DNA of 64,000 bases from an uncultured Clostridia bacterium (GTDB taxonomy: Bacteria; Bacillota; Clostridia; Oscillospirales; Ruminococcaceae), in the NCBI GenBank assembly GCA_947629905.1, contig CANRFM010000001.1, forward strand, positions 62,001-126,000, given 5' to 3'. Below, in pieces: positions 10,649 to 62,800 of this stretch (within the stretch, counting starts at the first letter, position 1; each line of letters starts with the position of its first letter). The notes beneath the pieces are model-generated. The model ran no database searches. It saw only the letters and a list, made by a program, of their open reading frames with translations, and was not told where the DNA came from. Position numbers and translations under genes: made by a program.

Positions 10649-12577
10649 TTAAATGTCCAGATTGGACACAGTTCTTGCATATTTTTCGATATAATCTTTC
10701 CGTGGCAGGACTTTGTCACCCATGAGAATGGTAATAATTTCATCCGCCCGGATCGCATCCTCCATACGGACACGCAAAATTGTGCGGGTCTCCGGGTTCA
10801 TGGTCGTTTCCCACAGCTGTTCAGAATCCATTTCACCCAGACCTTTGTACCGCTGCACGGCAACTTTGGCAGTGCTGCCGTTTGCATCGGCAAGTTCTGC
10901 AATATACTTATCCCGTTCCGGATCGCTGAAAGCGTAGTAGGTCTTTTTGCCCCGTGCCACTTTGTACAGCGGCGGCTGTGCAATATAGATATTTCCGTTC
11001 TCGATCAGAGGACGCATATACCGGAAGAAGAACGTCAGCAGCAGTGTCCGGATATGGCAGCCGTCCACGTCGGCATCCGCCATGATGATGACCTTTTCAT
11101 ACCGGAGTTTTTCTAAATTGAAATCCTCCCCGATCCCCGTTCCCAAAGCTGTCACGACTGGCATCAGTTTTTCATTGCCGTACACCTTGTCAAGGCGTGC
11201 CTTCTCCACGTTCAGCATCTTGCCCCACAGCGGCAAAATTGCCTGATAGCGTCTGTCTCTGCCGCCCTTGGCAGAACCGCCGGCGGAATCACCCTCGACA
11301 ATGTAGATCTCGGTATTTTCCACACCGTGTTCCGAACAGTCTGCCAGCTTGCCCGGCAAAGAAGCGCTCTCCATAGCAGACTTGCGGCGGGCAGTTTCCC
11401 TTGCGTTCTTGGCAGCTTCCCGGGCACGGCGGGCAGCAAGGCATTTGTCTAAAATTTCCTGTGCCACAGCAGGATTTGCCTCTAAATAATTCATCAGCTT
11501 TTCCTGCACGAGCTTTTCCACAAAGGGCTTTACCTGCGGATTGCCGAGCCGTCCCTTGGTCTGTCCCTCAAATTCGCACTCCGTCAGCTTCACGGAGACA
11601 ATTGCCGTCAGCCCCTCACGCACATCATCGCCGGACAGCTTTTCATTTTCCTTGAGGAATTTGAACTGCTTCCCGTACTCGTTGATGACCTTCGTCAGTG
11701 CATTCTTGAACCCCGTCTCATGGCTGCCGCCGTCTTTCGTGTGGATATTATTGGCAAAGGAGAGGATCATCTCATTGTAGCTGTCGTTGTACTGCATGGC
11801 AATTTCTGCAAACGAATCCCCGTCCATGCCGGAAACATAGATCACATCGCCGACCGATTCATAGCCCTTTTTCCGGTGAATATGCGCAATAAATTCCCGG
11901 ATGCCGCCCTCGTAGTGCAGCACATCCTCCACCGGATTTTCCGGGTCACGGGTATCGGAAATGGTGATGTGCACACCTGCATTCAGGAATGCCTGTTCCC
12001 GCATTCTGCGGCGCAGAATGGTATAATCAAATTCCGTTGTTTCAAAAATTTCCGGATCAGGCTTGAATGTGACCATCGTGCCGGTTTCCGTAGTATCCCC
12101 GATGACTTTCAGCGGTTCCGTGTATTTTCCACGGTCAAAGTGTTGAAAGTGGATATGCCCCTCGTTTTTTACAGTAATTTCCAGCCACTCAGAGAGCGCA
12201 TTCACGACCGAAGCGCCCACACCGTGCAGACCGCCGGAGACTTTATAGCCGCCGCCGCCGAACTTACCGCCGGCGTGCAGTACTGTATATACGACCGTTG
12301 CCGCTGAAATACCCTCTGTCGGGTGAATGCCCGTCGGGATACCACGTCCGTTGTCCGTCACACGGATGACATTATCCGGTAAGATCTCGACCGTGATCCT
12401 TGTGCAGTATCCGGCAAGTGCCTCATCAATGGCATTGTCCACGATCTCATACACCAAGTGGTGCAGACCCTCTGCACTGGTTGAACCGATATACATACCC
12501 GGCACTTTCCGCACAGGGTCAAGCCCCTCCAGCACCTCGATCTGTTCCGCATCATACATTTCTTCCACAACATTCAC
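10649..12577 (-). CDS. gyrB: DNA gyrase subunit B
   Basis: This 642-residue protein has the GHKL ATPase motifs in order: [19 protein letters not shown] and [14 protein letters not shown]. The TOPRIM domain reads [15 protein letters not shown] and [13 protein letters not shown]. The C-terminus, [20 protein letters not shown], is the GyrA-binding region. It supplies ATP hydrolysis for supercoiling. The start (12577) overlaps the stop of the upstream unknown gene (ATGA overlap), indicating coupled translation within the recF-gyrB-gyrA run. Confidence 0.98.
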
Positions 12578-17698: not shown

Positions 17699-17771
17699 GT
17701 CTTTTTTCACGAAAAGACAGCTATACATCATATTTTATTTTTACCATACAAAAACAAAAATCCATTCACTG

Positions 17772-19043
17772 TCATTTCCGCAGTGAAAGGAAAGAATGCT
17801 GAAAAATCGTTTGCACCATGCACATGGTCAATGCTTGTTTTCCGCACGCACCGCATTTCCGGAGGCTGCTGTCCATGAGAAAGGCGACCCGTGGCAGATA
17901 GCCCGCATCTTCGAGCAAAGTGAACAGCGGAAAGAAGATCGCCATCGGCGGCAGCATCACAGCCACCACCCATGAAAGCACCCGGTACATCCCGTCAAAG
18001 ATCACGCTGCACAGCCATTCCGGGGCATGGACAGAATGCAGCAGGGAACGTCCTTTCTCCCCCAGTGCCGTCAGCACCCCCGAAAGCCATTCAGACGGGT
18101 AGTTTGCCCCGACGATCGTGATCCATAAAATGCCAGCCAACAGCAGCAGCATGACCGGAATGCCCCACCGCTTCCCCATGAAGATCCGATCGAGCCGCCT
18201 GTCTGCCGCATCACTGCCGGGCGGCTGCGCCGTAACGGCAGCGGCGATCTGTTCGGCACGTTTCACGACAGCGGCAATGATGCTGTCCCGTATCCGCTCC
18301 GGTGTATAGCCAAGCTGTAACAGATTTTCCTGCAATTCAGCAATGTGACTTGTCAGGTGCGGCGGCGCTTCATACAGCGGCACTTTCTCCGTGAAGGCAG
18401 TATCCTGTTCGAGAAAGCGCAGCGCTGCCCACCTTGCCGGAACGGTCAGTTCCAGTGCCCCGATCAGCCCGGTCAGCACCTGTAAGCGGGGTTCTAACAC
18501 TGCCCCGTAATCCACAGCACACCCCGCCGGCGCTTCCTCTGCCGTCAGCAGGTCGGCAAGCCGCTCCTGTAGGGCTTTCAGACCCGCTCCGCTCCTTGCC
18601 GCCATGCCCACGACCGGAACACCGAGCAGGCGTTCCAGTGCCGGCAGATCAACGGTAATGCCCTTCTTTTCCGCCTCGTCAAGCAGATTCACACAGACCA
18701 GCACCCGTGGTGTCAGCTCCAGTGTTTGCAGGACGAGATTCAGGTTGCGCTCCAGACAGCAGGCATCGCAGACCACAGCCACGGCATCCGGACGGGCAAA
18801 ACAGATGTGATCACGGGCAGCCTCCTCCTCTGCCGAACTTGCCCGGAGGGAATATGTTCCGGGCAGGTCGGTCAGGATACAGTGCATCCCGTTGAGCTCA
18901 AATGTCCCCTCCGCCCCGGAAACCGTCTTGCCTGCCCAGTTTCCGGTGTGCTGGTGCAGCCCCGTGAGGGCATTGAATACGGTCGATTTTCCGACATTGG
19001 GATTTCCGGCAAGGGCGACATGATAGGCAGTCAGTTCCGGCAT
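17772..19043 (-). CDS. feoB: FeoB ferrous iron transporter, N-terminal part (split gene)
   Basis: Residues 1-409 are true FeoB: GTPase P-loop GNPNVGKS at 13-20, switch region TGNWAGKTV, DLPGTYSL, NLLDEAEKKG, then the first membrane helices and GYLPRVAFLMDS. The FeoB frame stops matching exactly at MCM (407-409), inside the repeat at 17816-17827. After it come 14 unrelated residues (VQTIFQHSFLSLRK) and a stop. The start has a strong AAGGAGG site. The missing rest of FeoB lies upstream on the same strand, at 19145-19981. FeoB takes up ferrous iron through the membrane; this piece alone keeps the G domain and only part of the pore. No feoA is seen nearby. Confidence 0.9.
   Translation of the reverse strand: MPELTAYHVALAGNPNVGKSTVFNALTGLHQHTGNWAGKTVSGAEGTFELNGMHCILTDLPGTYSLRASSAEEEAARDHICFARPDAVAVVCDACCLERNLNLVLQTLELTPRVLVCVNLLDEAEKKGITVDLPALERLLGVPVVGMAARSGAGLKALQERLADLLTAEEAPAGCAVDYGAVLEPRLQVLTGLIGALELTVPARWAALRFLEQDTAFTEKVPLYEAPPHLTSHIAELQENLLQLGYTPERIRDSIIAAVVKRAEQIAAAVTAQPPGSDAADRRLDRIFMGKRWGIPVMLLLLAGILWITIVGANYPSEWLSGVLTALGEKGRSLLHSVHAPEWLCSVIFDGMYRVLSWVVAVMLPPMAIFFPLFTLLEDAGYLPRVAFLMDSSLRKCGACGKQALTMCMVQTIFQHSFLSLRK
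17798..17827. other. Recombination site (B-P' hybrid) at the end of the feoB N-terminal part
   Basis: The 12-bp core CCATGCACATGG (17816-17827) recurs in the same orientation at 19972-19983. It is a palindrome except for its two central bases, as in serine-recombinase crossover sites. The arm at 17798-17815 pairs with the arm at 19984-20001 as an imperfect inverted repeat (about 12 of 18 matches). Confidence 0.75.
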
Positions 19044-19125
19044 GGTACATTCCTCCTTGTTTCTATTTTACCATATGCAGCACAGAGAGAAAAAATGAAC
19101 ACACCATGAATTAAAACTCTGTCGG

Positions 19126-19138
19126 AATGAATGTCATT
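19126..19138. promoter_or_regulatory. Small inverted repeat between the feoB halves, possible operator
   Basis: AATGA-ATG-TCATT lies in the 101-bp gap between the stop of the C-terminal part and the start of the N-terminal part. A TAAAAT -10-like hexamer and AAGGAGG follow toward the N-terminal start. It could be an iron-regulator site, but it does not match the canonical Fur box well. Confidence 0.25.
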
Positions 19139-19144
19139 TTCCCG

Positions 19145-19981
19145 TCATATAAACCACATCCCGACCCCATGCAGCACAAAGCACACGCAGAGTCCGCACA
19201 CAGTCGGCAGCACAGCGGCAAATAGTGTCCATTTCAGGCTGCCGGTCTCTTTCCGGATCGTCAGAAGTGTCGTGGAACAGGGGAAGTGCATCAGGGAAAA
19301 TGTCATGGTACACAACGCCGTCAGCCACGTCCAGCCGTTTTCCACAAGGATGCTGTGTAATGTGGAAAGTTCACCCGTTTCCACCAGTGTGCCCTGTGCA
19401 AGGTAGGACATCAGCACGATCGGCAGAACGATCTCATTCGCCGGAAAGGCAAGCAGAAAGGCGAGCAGAATGCTCCCATCCATCCCGAACCACCTTGCAA
19501 ACGGATCAAGCACCCCCGCACAGAACGAAAGCAGACTGCCCTCTCCCACCGAAATATTGGCAAAGATCCAGATCACCAACCCTGCCGGAGCTGCAACCAT
19601 ACACGCCCTGCCGAGGACAAATACTGTCCTGTCGAGCAGCGAGCGGAGCAGCACTTTCCCGATCTGCGGACGGCGGTAGGGGGGCAGTTCGAGCATAAAA
19701 GAAGAGGGCATCCCCCGCAGCAGCGTGCCGGAGAGTATGCGTGAGACGAGCAGCGTCATCCCCACGCCGCAGAGTATTACCCCCAGTAAAATCAGCGCCG
19801 AAACCACCGAACCCCCTGCCCCCGTCACAAAAAACATCCCGATCAAGGAGATCAGCAGTGGAAAACGCCCATTGCACGGCGTGAAAACATTCGTCAGAAC
19901 AGCGATCAGGCGCTCCCGTGGGGAATCCATGATCCGGCAGCCCGTCACCCCACAGGCATTGCAGCCTAAGCCCATGCACAT
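19145..19981 (-). pseudogene. feoB: FeoB C-terminal part, separated and placed upstream of the N-terminal part
   Basis: The 278 codons from the ATG at 19981 encode the rest of FeoB. They open MCMGLGCNACGVTGCRIMDS and continue with PRERLIAVLTN and CNGRFPLL, the conserved core after the first helices, then the remaining transmembrane segments to the end. The first three residues (MCM) repeat residues 407-409 of the N-terminal part, and joining the two gives a continuous 684-residue FeoB. There is no ribosome-binding site before the ATG, which lies in the recombination site. In this configuration the piece is therefore probably poorly translated or silent. It is not a frameshift: the halves are in permuted order. 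Confidence 0.85.
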
Positions 19982-20001
19982 GGGGCATATGATTTTGCGC
20001 T
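19972..20001. other. Recombination site (P-B' hybrid) between the recombinase and the feoB C-terminal part
   Basis: The 12-bp core CCATGCACATGG (19972-19983) is identical to and co-directional with 17816-17827, 2,156 bp away. The arm beside it overlaps the last codons of the recombinase gene. Combining this arm with that at 17798-17815 reconstructs a near-symmetrical attP-like site of about 48 bp. Confidence 0.75.
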
Positions 20002-21370
20002 ATATCCGCCATTCGATCTCCACAGATCTGCCGTCTATCCGGATAGTTTGGATCATGGAGGCAACCAAAAGCCGTTTTTCAGCAAGTGTTCCGCTATGTA
20101 GGACGGAATGGAAGTTTTCCACAGAGAGGGTGCAGTTTGTGTGGAAAACTTGCTCCGCCTGTTCGATCTGATTTTGCAGCAGCAGCTTCCGGGAGCGCAG
20201 GGCTTCTGCCCGTTCCTGAACCTGAGAAAAGGGTATAGCAGCGATCTGATACAGTTCCATCACACGGGACAATGCCGCTTCCGTGTCGGCGATCTCCTGC
20301 CGGAGAGCCGCCGTGTCTACAGCGCCCGGCACGGGCAGAAATTCCCTGCTGCCCGCTATGGTGATCTGCTTCATTTCGTGCAGTATGACCGCATCAAGGT
20401 CTTCGATTTTCCAGTTATCATTCCGGCAAGCGGGATCTTGTATGCATTTTTTGGCACATTTCGAGCGTGAATAACATCTGTAGCAGCCATGCCCGGCGCT
20501 GTATCTTGCCCCGCAGCGTTTGCAGTACACAATACCGGAAAGCAGATAGCCAGCCCGGAAAGGCGTTTTCTGGGCGCTGTTTTTCCTGTGCTCACGGTCG
20601 GCATCCTGAAGCAGGCGGTTCGCTGCCGCATAGATCTCCTCGCTGATGATCGCCTTGTGCCGTCCGGGATATTCCACACCGGCAAATTTTACCTTTCCGG
20701 TGTAGATGCTGTTTTTCAGGCAGCCGGAAACTTTAGCGGCACTGTTCCAGAGGGTATTGTGGAATTCTTCCTCCATTTGTTTTGCAATGGCATGGATACT
20801 CATACCGGACAGGAAGAGCGAAAAAATACGCTGCACTTGTGCCGCCTCTGAGGGGACGATGTGCAGCGCTCCGTCCTGATAGCGATAGCCTTTCGGGGCA
20901 TTGCCGCCGCCGTGAAAATAGCCAGCCCTGCCCCGCCCGATGCGCCCCATTGTAAAGCGCTCCGTGATCTGATCCTTTTCGAGCTGTGCAAATACAGAGA
21001 GTATCCCGATCATTGCCCTGCCAAACGGCGTGGTCGTGTCAAAATTCTCACAGACGGAGATGAAGTCCACATGATTGGCAAGAAATGCATCCTCGATCAG
21101 TGACAGCGTGTCTTTCTGTGACCGGCTCAGGCGGTCGAGTTTATACACGACCACCGCCTCAATGCAGCCCCTGCGGATGTCATTCAGGCATTCCTGTAAA
21201 GCAGGGCGGTTCATATTGCCGCCGCTGTAGCCGCCGTCTGTGTAAAATCGATAGATGCTGTAGTCTTTCGCCTTGCAGTAGGCTTTCAGCCGTTCCGTCT
21301 GTTCCTCAATGCTGTAGTTGTCAAGCTGATTTTCCGTAGAGACCCGGACATAACAGGCAACCGTTTTCAT
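20000..21370 (-). CDS. Large serine recombinase
   Basis: This 456-residue protein has the N-terminal resolvase/invertase catalytic domain (ACYVRVSTENQ with catalytic Ser11, YKLDRLSRS, and the helix GRAMIGILSVFAQLEKDQ). A recombinase domain follows (GGGNAPKGYRY to about 250), then a zinc ribbon (YCKRCGARY and a second CysCys group, KCAKKC) and a coiled-coil-containing C-terminus (VQERAEALRSRKLLLQNQIE). This is the integrase class used by phages and conjugative elements such as Tn4451. All domains look intact. Its stop is 17 bp from the crossover core next to the feoB C-terminal part. No excisionase, phage or conjugation gene accompanies it. Confidence 0.93.
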   Translation of the reverse strand: MKTVACYVRVSTENQLDNYSIEEQTERLKAYCKAKDYSIYRFYTDGGYSGGNMNRPALQECLNDIRRGCIEAVVVYKLDRLSRSQKDTLSLIEDAFLANHVDFISVCENFDTTTPFGRAMIGILSVFAQLEKDQITERFTMGRIGRGRAGYFHGGGNAPKGYRYQDGALHIVPSEAAQVQRIFSLFLSGMSIHAIAKQMEEEFHNTLWNSAAKVSGCLKNSIYTGKVKFAGVEYPGRHKAIISEEIYAAANRLLQDADREHRKNSAQKTPFRAGYLLSGIVYCKRCGARYSAGHGCYRCYSRSKCAKKCIQDPACRNDNWKIEDLDAVILHEMKQITIAGSREFLPVPGAVDTAALRQEIADTEAALSRVMELYQIAAIPFSQVQERAEALRSRKLLLQNQIEQAEQVFHTNCTLSVENFHSVLHSGTLAEKRLLVASMIQTIRIDGRSVEIEWRI

Positions 21371-21424
21371 AAGCTCACCCCTTTATAGTAATAGTATAGG
21401 ATATGCAGTGTGCGCATGATTTAA

Positions 21425-21452
21425 TAAAAAAATGCCAGAGATTTCCGGCATA
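21425..21452 (-). terminator. Intrinsic terminator upstream of the recombinase
   Basis: On the minus strand ATGCC and GGCAT flank a short loop and are followed by a run of seven T residues. It would stop transcription coming from the rpsT side before the recombinase gene. It overlaps the -35 of the opposite-strand promoter at 21448-21476. Confidence 0.5.
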
Positions 21453-25598: not shown

Positions 25599-25725
25599 GA
25601 CATCCGGGCAGATTCTCCGCATTTTGTTGAAAATGCTGTGTTCTGACAGTTTTTTTGTGTGCATTATGCATTATAACAGATTATAACAGAAATCCCCGAA
25701 GGCAGCGTGACGCTGCACCCGTTGT

Positions 25726-25803
25726 GCCTCCCAATGCGCCTACGGCGCAAAGGTCGGCTTGCGTGACTGCTGCTTTTATCTTACCTAAAAGCAGTCGCCC
25801 TTT
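25726..25803 (-). repeat. Interspersed intergenic repeat, copy A
   Basis: Read on the minus strand this 78-bp stretch matches 28435-28514 on the plus strand at roughly 90% identity, including AGGTAAGATAAAAG and GCAAGCCGACCTTTG. The two copies form an inverted pair around sigG-spoIIGA-sigE. Confidence 0.8.
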
Positions 25804-25819
25804 GCGCCTCAGAATTTTC

Positions 25820-28407: not shown

Positions 28408-28447
28408 GCAGTCGCCCAATGCGCCTGATGGCACAAAGGGCGACTGC
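28408..28447. repeat. 40-bp hairpin unit, copy 2
   Basis: This unit is identical over 40 bp to 28246-28285. Its right arm runs into the interspersed repeat copy B. A shortened version of its left arm ends copy A near 25790-25808. Confidence 0.75.
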
Positions 28448-28514
28448 TTTCAGGTAAGATAAAAGTAGCAGTCATGCAAGCCGACCTTTGCCGCCGTAGG
28501 CGGCATTGGGAGGC
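28435..28514 (+). repeat. Interspersed intergenic repeat, copy B
   Basis: This 80-bp stretch is inverted relative to 25726-25803 with roughly 90% identity. Compensating changes such as GCCGCCGTAGGCGGC against GCGCCGTAGGCGC suggest that the hairpin structure is kept. Confidence 0.8.
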
Positions 28515-28555
28515 AAATCGGAAGCGGCAGCCTGCCGCCGGGCAGACTTTTGCTA

Positions 28556-59846: not shown

Positions 59847-62800
59847 TCATGCAACTGTGAACTGCTTGTTCACCAGTGCGTAGTTACTGTTCTTGGCGTT
59901 GGTCGCAATGACGGCATAGACATACTTGCCAGCCGGGAGCTTGTTGAATTCTACGTAAGAATCGAGCTTGTGCAGATCGTAGGACTTGGCATTCGGAGCG
60001 ATCGTCCTGCCGGTCACGAACTTGCCGTCGATGCTGTACACACCCACGGTCAGGGCAGTGATATTGGAGCTTGCCGAAGTGACAGTGCCCGTCACGCTGA
60101 GCGCCTTGCCCTTGGCAAGGGTTGCCGGAACGGTCGTTCCGCCGGAGATCGTCAGCTTGTCGTCTGCATTCGGGGTCGTTGTGGTCGTATTGCCGCCGCC
60201 GCTGCCGACTGTGAAGTTCTGGTTCACGAGTGCATAATTCTTATTTGCCGCATTGGTCGCAATGACGGCATAGACATACTTGCCCTCCGGGAGCTTATTA
60301 AATTCGACATAGGCATCGAGTTTGTGCAGATCGTAGGACTTCGCATTGGGGTTGATCGTCTTTCCGGTCACGAACTTGCCTGCGCTGTCATACACACCTA
60401 CGGTCAGGGAAGTCATTGCGGAACTTGCCGAAGTGACGGTACCCGTCACGCTGACAGCCTTGCCCTTGGCAAGATTTTCCGGAACGGTCGTTCCGCCGGA
60501 GATCGTCAGCTTGTCGTCTGTGCTTGGGGTCGTTGTGCCTGTATTGCCGCCGTTGCCGACTGTAAAGCTCTGGTTCACGAGCGCATAATTGCTGTTCGCT
60601 GCATTGGTCGCAATGACAGCGTAGACATAAGTACCGTCTGTCAGCTTGTTAAATTCGACATAGGCATCAAGATGTTTCAGGTCATAGTTCTTTGCCTTCG
60701 GGTCGATGGTCTTGCCGGTCACGAACTTGCCCGCACTGTCGTAAACGCCTACGGTCAGGGAAGTCATCACGGAATTTGCCGAGGTGACGACACCACGCAC
60801 GCTGACAGCCTTACCCTTGGCAAGCTGTGTGGGAACGGTCGTGCCGCCGGAAATGGAGAGCTTATCGTCCGCAGAGGGGGTCGTTACGGATGTATCACCG
60901 ACCGAGAACGTCTGGTTCACGATGGCATAATTGCTGTTTGCGGCATTGGTCGCAATGACGGCATAGACATACTTGCCCTCCGGCAGCTTGTTGAATTCCA
61001 CATAAGCATCAAGCTTGTGGGTGTCGTAGGTCTTGGCATTCGGGGCAATGGTCTTTCCGGTCACGAATTTCCCTGCGCTGTCATATACGCCCACGGTCAG
61101 GGAAGTGATATTGGAGCTTGCCGAGGTGACAACACCCTTGACGGAAAGTGCCTTGCCCTTAGCGAGATTGTTCGGTACGGATGTGCCGCCTGTGATCGTC
61201 AGCTTGTCATTGGTGCTTGGCGTGGTCGTGCCTGTACCCGTGCCGTCACCTACGGTAAATGTCTGATTGACAAGGGCGAAATTCGTATTGGCAGCATTGG
61301 AAGCGATAACGGCATAGACATATTCCCCTGCCGGCAGCTTGCTGAATGCTACATCGTTGTCGAGCTTTTTCAGGTCATAGGACTTGGCATTGGGGTTAAT
61401 GGTCTTGCCGGTCACAAACTTGCCTGCCTTGTCATAGACCCCTGCCGTCAGTGCCGTCATATTGGAGCTTTCGGAAGTGACAACGCCGGTCACGTTGAGT
61501 GCCTTGCCGACAGGCAGTGTTGCCGGAACGGTCATGCCGCCTGTGATAGACAGCTTATCCTCCGCAGAGGGCTGCTGTGTCGTCCCCGAACCCACGGTAA
61601 ATGCCTTTTCATAGAGCTTCACACTGGTATTGGCAGCATTGGAAGCGGTAACGGCATAGACATATTTCCCTGCCGGGAGCTTGTTAAATTCTACATAATT
61701 GTCGAGCTGTTTCAGGTCATAGCTCTTGACATTGGGGGAAGCCGTTCTGCCGGTGATGAGCTTGTTATTCGCATCATATACGCCCACGGTCAGGGAGCTG
61801 ATGGCGGAATTGGCGGAAGTGACAACACCCCGGACATTCAGCGCTTTTCCGACAGCTAAAGTATCCGGAACGGCTGTTCCGCCTGTGAGCGTGAGCTTGT
61901 CCTCTGTGGCAGCCGGCGGGTCGGGTGGGTTTTCAGCCGGCGGGTCGGTCGGGTTTTCGGTGGGTGTGTCAGAAGAAGTGCCAACGGTGAATGCCTTGTT
62001 CACGAGGGCATAATTGCTGTTGGAAGCATTGGTCGCAATGACAGCGAAAACATATTCGCCCTCTTCGAGCGTGCCGAAACTGATGTAATTATCCAGATTT
62101 TTCAGGTCATAGGACTTGGTGTTCGGTGCAATGGTTCTGCCGGTCACGAATTTGCCGTCCTTACTGTAGACACCGGCTGTCAGGGCTGTAATTGTGGAGC
62201 TGGACGAGGTGACAACACCGGTCACACGGACTACCTGCCCTTTGGCAAGCGTTGAGGGCATATCGTTTGCGCCGGAAATGCTCAGGGTGTCGTCATTCTC
62301 CCCTGCGCCTGTGATGGTGAATTTCTTATTGACAAGTGCCTTGTTCGTCAGGGATGCATTGGAGGCGATGACTGCAAAGGTATAAGACCCTGCCGGGAGC
62401 TTGTTGAAGCTGATATACTGGTCTAACTGGCTCAGGTCATAGGTCGTTGCCTTGGGGGCAATGGTCTTGCCGGTCACGAATTTGCCGTTGGCATCGTAGA
62501 CACCTGCCGTCAGTGCGGTCATATTGGAAGAACCGGAAGTCACAATGCCCTGGATGCTGAAGCTTTCGCCCTGTTTCAGGGTAGCAGGAACTTCCGTTGC
62601 GCCGGAAATGGACAGCCCGTCAGAAGCGGCTTCCCCGTTATCCGTTACGGTGAAACGCTTATTGACAATGGCATAATTGGTATTGGCTGCATTGCTTGCG
62701 ATGACAGCATACGTATACGTACCTGCCGAAAGCGTATTGAAAGCAACATAGGAGTCCAGACGCTGCAGGTCATAGGACTTTACATTGGGGGCAATGGTCT

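Follow-up and report, generated by a model that had tools for sequence, protein, structure and literature searches.

A permuted feoB gene between apparent attachment-site cores beside a large serine integrase in an uncultured Clostridia bacterium

Large serine integrases of the phage type are known to carry out site-specific integration into a conserved gene via a short core, and the DNA that serine integrases are known to insert at and excise from such a site is the element that encodes them. In integrons, an IntI integrase lies beside the site attI and serves gene cassettes, and in specialised transduction the aberrant excision of a prophage carries host flanks along. We analysed a stretch of 64,000 nucleotides (positions 62,001 to 126,000 of contig CANRFM010000001.1, assembly GCA_947629905.1; hereafter the window) from an uncultured Clostridia bacterium of the Ruminococcaceae, in which the gene feoB is permuted between two copies of a short repeat next to a large serine integrase.

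On the minus strand of the window, the order is serine recombinase, FeoB C-terminal part, a gap of 101 bp, FeoB N-terminal part and dnaA (Table 1). The frames and the domain matches agree on this order, and the permutation of feoB is real; the order of N-terminal part, element and C-terminal part expected of a normal element in feoB is not the one found in the window. When the N-terminal frame was aligned to the intact feoB of the closest genome within the genus, that of a sister species (G007), it followed FeoB up to codon 409 and continued with 14 foreign codons. The Gate domain is broken by the split, as the N-terminal part covers only positions 3-53 of the 104 positions of the profile. By eye, no Shine-Dalgarno sequence was seen upstream of the C-terminal part. 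When the halves were joined across the core in a script, they formed one frame of 684 aa, which is as long as the intact FeoB of the sister species and identical to it over 30 residues around the join. The order of the two parts, the missing ribosome site of the C-terminal part in the chromosome, the single 684-codon frame on a circle with 101 bp from stop to start, and a topology unlike that of a normal insertion had all been proposed in an initial annotation of this DNA, and each was reproduced here.

Table 1. Features of the permuted feoB locus (positions in the window)
Feature	Position	Strand	Remarks
Left insert edge, dnaA to core	17717..17795		without counterpart in the sister species
feoB N-terminal part	17772..19043	-	423 codons; FeoB_N, FeoB_Cyto and first half of a Gate domain
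Putative phage-type arm (P), dnaA side	17796..17815	-	inverted repeat of the integrase-side arm, 13/20
Crossover core, apparent hybrid site 1 (N-terminal half of feoB + dnaA-side arm)	17816..17827	-	feoB break of relatives at the same core position
101-bp junction	19044..19144		feoB downstream flank joined to feoB upstream flank; holds the ribosome site of the N-terminal part
feoB C-terminal part	19145..19981	-	278 codons; FeoB_C, Gate; start inside core; aligned to G007
Crossover core, apparent hybrid site 2 (C-terminal half of feoB + integrase-side arm)	19972..19983	-	12-mer match
Phage-type arm (P'), beside integrase	19984..20003		profile score 10.7
Large serine integrase	20000..21370	-	456 aa, intact frame; Resolvase, Recombinase and Zn-ribbon domains
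Right insert edge, upstream of integrase	21371..21435		G007 homology resumes at ~21436

Both FeoB breaks fall inside a 12-mer, CCATGCACATGG, whose two copies are direct repeats at a distance of 2,156 bp. In the assembly of 2,013,685 bases the 12-mer had exactly two matches, both at this locus, and a control with the reversed pattern had none. A chance repeat is ruled out by these counts, which also bear out the shared 12-bp direct core that had been noticed exactly at the two frame breaks. To score the sequences beside the cores, we used an arm profile built from the intact phage attachment sites (attP; arm, core and inverted-repeat arm) of 11 loci, 4 from genomic contigs and 7 from viral contigs of IMG/VR. 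The integrase-side arm scored 10.7 bits, within the top 0.004% of window positions; the 22 known arms of the intact attP sites, being the same arms that built the profile, scored 6.5-27.9. Read as an inverted repeat, the dnaA-side arm is identical to the integrase-side arm at 13/20 positions, which is also reached by 25 of 127,958 other 20-mers of the window and by 6 of 16,654 GC-matched ones (arms left out). Each site looks as if one half came from feoB and the other from a phage arm, the assignment of the arm being less certain on the dnaA side; both sites resemble hybrid left and right attachment sites (attL and attR).

In the case of the integrase, Resolvase, Recombinase and Zn-ribbon domains occur together in one protein within the ~450-510 aa range of its family, the Zn-ribbon match being barely at the cut-off (25.3 bits). 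The stop codon lies 16 bp from the core. The large serine recombinase that had been assigned to this position does adjoin the core, and the attachment sites of its family fall at the same feoB break, but the distance is 16 bp and not the 17 bp first given.

We collected relatives of the integrase (45-59% identity) at 52 loci in GTDB genomes. At 42 of the 52, the matched integrase end lies within 600 bp of the same feoB break, at codon 409/410. In type I (25/52), the integrase end is just upstream of the FeoB C-terminal part on the same strand, like in the window; in type II (17/52), it stands against the FeoB N-terminal part in the opposite direction. Neither FeoB part lies within 600 bp at the other 10 loci, three of which (L029, L043 and L066) have the C-terminal part farther away on the same strand. 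Read on the integrase strand, the central dinucleotide of the core was CA in all 17 loci of type II. Of the 25 type I loci, 23 had TG as scripted and 24 by eye; L053 had been mis-framed by one codon and is TG by eye, and L023 has CT. An insertion orientation that goes with the core dinucleotide fits the known behaviour of serine integrases, and the feoB-targeting family is a clean natural case of orientation following this dinucleotide.

Where both ends were in one fetched locus (9 loci listed), the element size was 2.7-9.1 kb, that of L050 being counted from a different break near codon 352. The distance from integrase to FeoB C-terminal part is ~41 kb in G570 and ~29 kb in G574, which is the size of a prophage. 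Intact attP with inverted-repeat arms was found in phage-like and viral contigs, and a reading of open reading frames (ORFs) placed phage-type genes on the contigs of L027, L036 and L044. On these sequence comparisons, the integrase belongs to a feoB-targeting family of large serine integrases carried by phages and smaller elements, and the cores are supported as attachment sites of this family. No close integrase was present among 36 other members of the genus (best E 2.4e-32); in wider samples, it occurred in 9/394 genomes of the order (E 1e-90) and 6/396 genomes of the family (E 1e-80), own genome included.

Further arrangements were observed around feoB. Locus L043 carries an integrase with an intact attP and, beyond a run of N, the end of another integrase joined to the FeoB C-terminal part; it is possibly a tandem element. 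A second subfamily of integrases (~42% identity) is represented at L229 and L050, where its gene ends next to codon 352-355 of feoB, another break. At L237-L241, the feoB match begins at residue 18-38 of the window's C-terminal part, and a distant serine recombinase match lies within 2 kb of the feoB match in 4/5 of them; these are probably further insertion points in feoB. Since several of the feoB breaks among 20 extra loci (the further sample described below) adjoin distant serine recombinases (23-30% identity), feoB is a shared target. Among the publication titles listed in a search of the open literature, none named feoB as an integrase target, which does not prove that no such work exists.

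The sister species presents what looks like the original place of feoB. In G007, the intact 684-aa feoB lies between the genes for uracil-DNA-glycosylase (UDG) and a GH94 phosphorylase with typA next (gene names from ORF reading), and dnaA adjoins the DUF378 gene with neither integrase nor feoB between them. Homology of the window to G007 stops near 17716 and resumes near 21436, which leaves an insert of ~3.7 kb between dnaA and DUF378 consisting of phage-type arm, permuted feoB and integrase. Beyond its dnaA end, the left edge of the insert had one short match only among the fetched loci, at chance level (17 bp, L066). The UDG-GH94 interval in the window's genome (C1:143,999-144,782) is without feoB and has YafQ-type toxin and RelB-type antitoxin genes instead, and feoB is now ~62 kb from it on the same contig. 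It appears from this comparison that feoB has left the sister-type locus in this genome. In the more distant G014, feoB has a glycosylase gene (40% identity) and metF nearby, and G001 has feoB near typA; because of these similar surroundings, the sister's place of feoB looks old.

The YafQ/RelB pair itself was located at L174:18127-18733, on the same contig between the GH94 and UDG genes. A GC-rich repeat family, seen in the window at 25699-25808 and 28411-28540, recurs on many of the genome's contigs and also flanks feoB of the sister species (L115:8548-8799 and 11090-11225). Excision of feoB via these flanking repeats is unsupported, as among the fetched sequences the middle of the 101-bp junction had no matches other than copies of this locus.

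To see how the split gene has evolved, we compared both halves with G007. The synonymous divergence (dS) was 0.40 for the N-terminal and 0.44 for the C-terminal part, and nine other genes gave 0.23-0.72. Because these values lie within the range of the nine genes, feoB is the lineage's own gene, and import from another species is ruled out. The ratio of nonsynonymous to synonymous divergence (dN/dS) was 0.128 (N) and 0.055 (C), the nine other genes having 0.023-0.222. With four outgroups, amino-acid changes in the N-terminal part were assigned 13 to this branch and 13 to G007 with 11 left over, and those in the C-terminal part 4 and 5 with 4 left over. Decay of the split gene was not seen, both halves being within the dN/dS range and the changes even between the branches; this sister-like constraint suggests either that the event was recent or that some function persists. 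The genome also has a second FeoB, an ORF of 828 aa on another contig with FeoB_N, FeoB_Cyto, Gate and FeoB_C, which was below the reach of our N-terminal-part search at E 1e-40. The permuted gene as the sole FeoB of the cell is thereby ruled out, and it need not be essential because of this second copy.

A circle containing feoB would be the simplest account of the order integrase, C-terminal part, N-terminal part and arm with joined outer flanks. We consider it moderately probable that the ~3.7-kb insert is the product of an attP × attB (phage by bacterial site) reaction by a feoB-specific integrase with a circular intermediate that had a composite history. An element would first have integrated normally inside feoB at the native locus, and the whole unit of feoB and element would then have been excised as a circle, whose closure would have linked the outer feoB flanks into the 101-bp junction. 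The circle would have re-entered near dnaA through a break inside the element, of which only the integrase-bearing end and one arm would have escaped later loss. In the chromosome, feoB is split and probably inert, and the arrangement is probably not a working switch but a relic.

Several observations weigh against this account. Since the element body is missing, we infer that it once lay within the feoB of this lineage. The dnaA-side arm had a weak profile score of 2.5 (top 0.1% of window positions), and 7/316 local 18-mers, the arm included, score as high. The sister-like constraint fits an inert gene only if the event was recent. In G018, feoB is ~2.7 kb from DUF378, so that the genus locus is not fixed and the argument on polarity is weakened. 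Moreover, no intermediate stage was met: the permuted order was found in 0/21 type I loci for which over 2.5 kb of sequence follows the break and in 0/19 further loci with 2.5 kb downstream, and the circle junction and the empty attP each had 0 matches in IMG/VR. The further sample comprised 20 loci with a short C-terminal-part frame, chosen among the matches listed, of which L226 has 1.5 kb downstream. Not all are true splits, and at least 3/20 are contig-edge or other-break cases: in L234 the frame continues into the N-terminal part where the contig ends, L222 begins at a distance of 77 bp from the end of its contig, and the break of L229 falls close to codon 355; G600, G702, G626, G515, G542 and G704 (frames <430 aa) were left out. 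The permutation of feoB is a rare rearrangement.

The same end topology would result if an integrase-attP module had been resident between dnaA and DUF378 and had inserted a 2,156-bp feoB circle by attP × attB, and the capture of a circular feoB at the integrase's own attP had indeed been suggested in the initial annotation. Both sites look like the attL and attR that such a capture predicts, feoB is gone from the sister-type locus and present at dnaA, and the remaining foreign DNA is almost solely integrase and arms. A phage-type serine integrase would in this way have captured a native host-gene circle, moved feoB over ~62 kb and permuted it at the crossover in an integron-like reaction, which we regard as possible and rather doubtful. 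A resident integrase with an intact attP was never seen outside phage-like or viral contigs (11 loci, with L043 undecided), the 36 other genus members lack a close integrase, and a circle of feoB only needs a formation event of its own that is unexplained. Considering that the two histories give the same product through about equal numbers of rare events, we lean only slightly to excision of feoB together with an element inside it, because sitting in feoB is the documented habit of the family and because intact attP was seen in phage-like and viral contigs (L043 undecided) and not in evident chromosomal platforms. The suggested capture thus stays as one of two routes, and as the slightly disfavoured one.

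The initial annotation had also offered a reversible switch for iron uptake, in which the integrase would excise feoB as a circle bearing an intact, expressed gene. The intact integrase frame, the identical cores, the 684-aa frame on the circle and the equal amino-acid changes on the two branches (13 and 13 in the N-terminal part, 4 and 5 in the C-terminal part) would agree with it. However, serine integrases do not recombine attL/attR hybrids without a phage-encoded factor (PMC3783163). Besides integrase and feoB no further gene was recognised in the insert that could be such a helper or directionality factor, and no dedicated search for one was run. A 2.1-kb circle with feoB as its sole gene is predicted to be lost unless re-inserted, and no promoter was called within the 101-bp junction by a scan for a simple consensus, which is a weak test. 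Together with the weak dnaA-side arm, the second complete FeoB, and the lack of permuted order in any examined relative (0/21 and 0/19), this makes an active switch quite improbable, and that part of the suggestion is not supported.

A working two-piece FeoB, in which the halves are made from the strand running from the integrase through the C-terminal to the N-terminal part and then assemble, would agree with the two open frames and with dN/dS values inside the nine-gene range; the C-terminal half lacks a visible Shine-Dalgarno sequence, the break is inside the Gate domain, and a recent event explains the constraint equally, which leaves such a protein very improbable. An assembly artefact is likewise highly unlikely, for even if the draft has 40 contigs and is 89.65% complete (tool's figure), several simultaneous false joins would be required, two of them precisely at the crossover core of the integrase, and the native locus, which lies on the same contig, is also without feoB.

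When compared with known systems, the integrase is closest in the phage collection to those of BUCT702, BL3 and phiFC1/EFC-1 (36-44% identity, with alignments that span nearly the whole enzyme). Those phages are distant, however, and the feoB-targeting relatives in genome contigs reach 45-59% identity; moreover, this locus lacks the phage body, and its host gene is not interrupted in order but permuted. The locus is similar to an integron in that an integrase lies beside its own site and a gene circle is apparently at that site. In contrast with integrons, the enzyme is a serine and not a tyrosine recombinase, so that it is not an IntI, and there is one gene only, which the site divides in two. 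Active lysogeny and phage regulatory switches share with this locus a gene that is interrupted at a phage attachment site and restorable by site-specific excision. There, the phage leaves a gene and its precise excision restores the chromosomal copy, whereas here excision between the cores would remove the gene, with the integrase staying in the chromosome. Specialised transduction likewise brings host DNA and phage ends together on one circle, and differs in that the DNA apparently reinserted elsewhere in the present case is an entire host gene whose two flanks have been joined. Taken together, the host gene and not the element alone appears to have been relocated, with the permuted gene left as a signature. 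If a host gene can be relocated by the integrases whose attB it bears, this would be a route of gene relocation that annotation would miss, as the two resulting fragments resemble a pseudogene.

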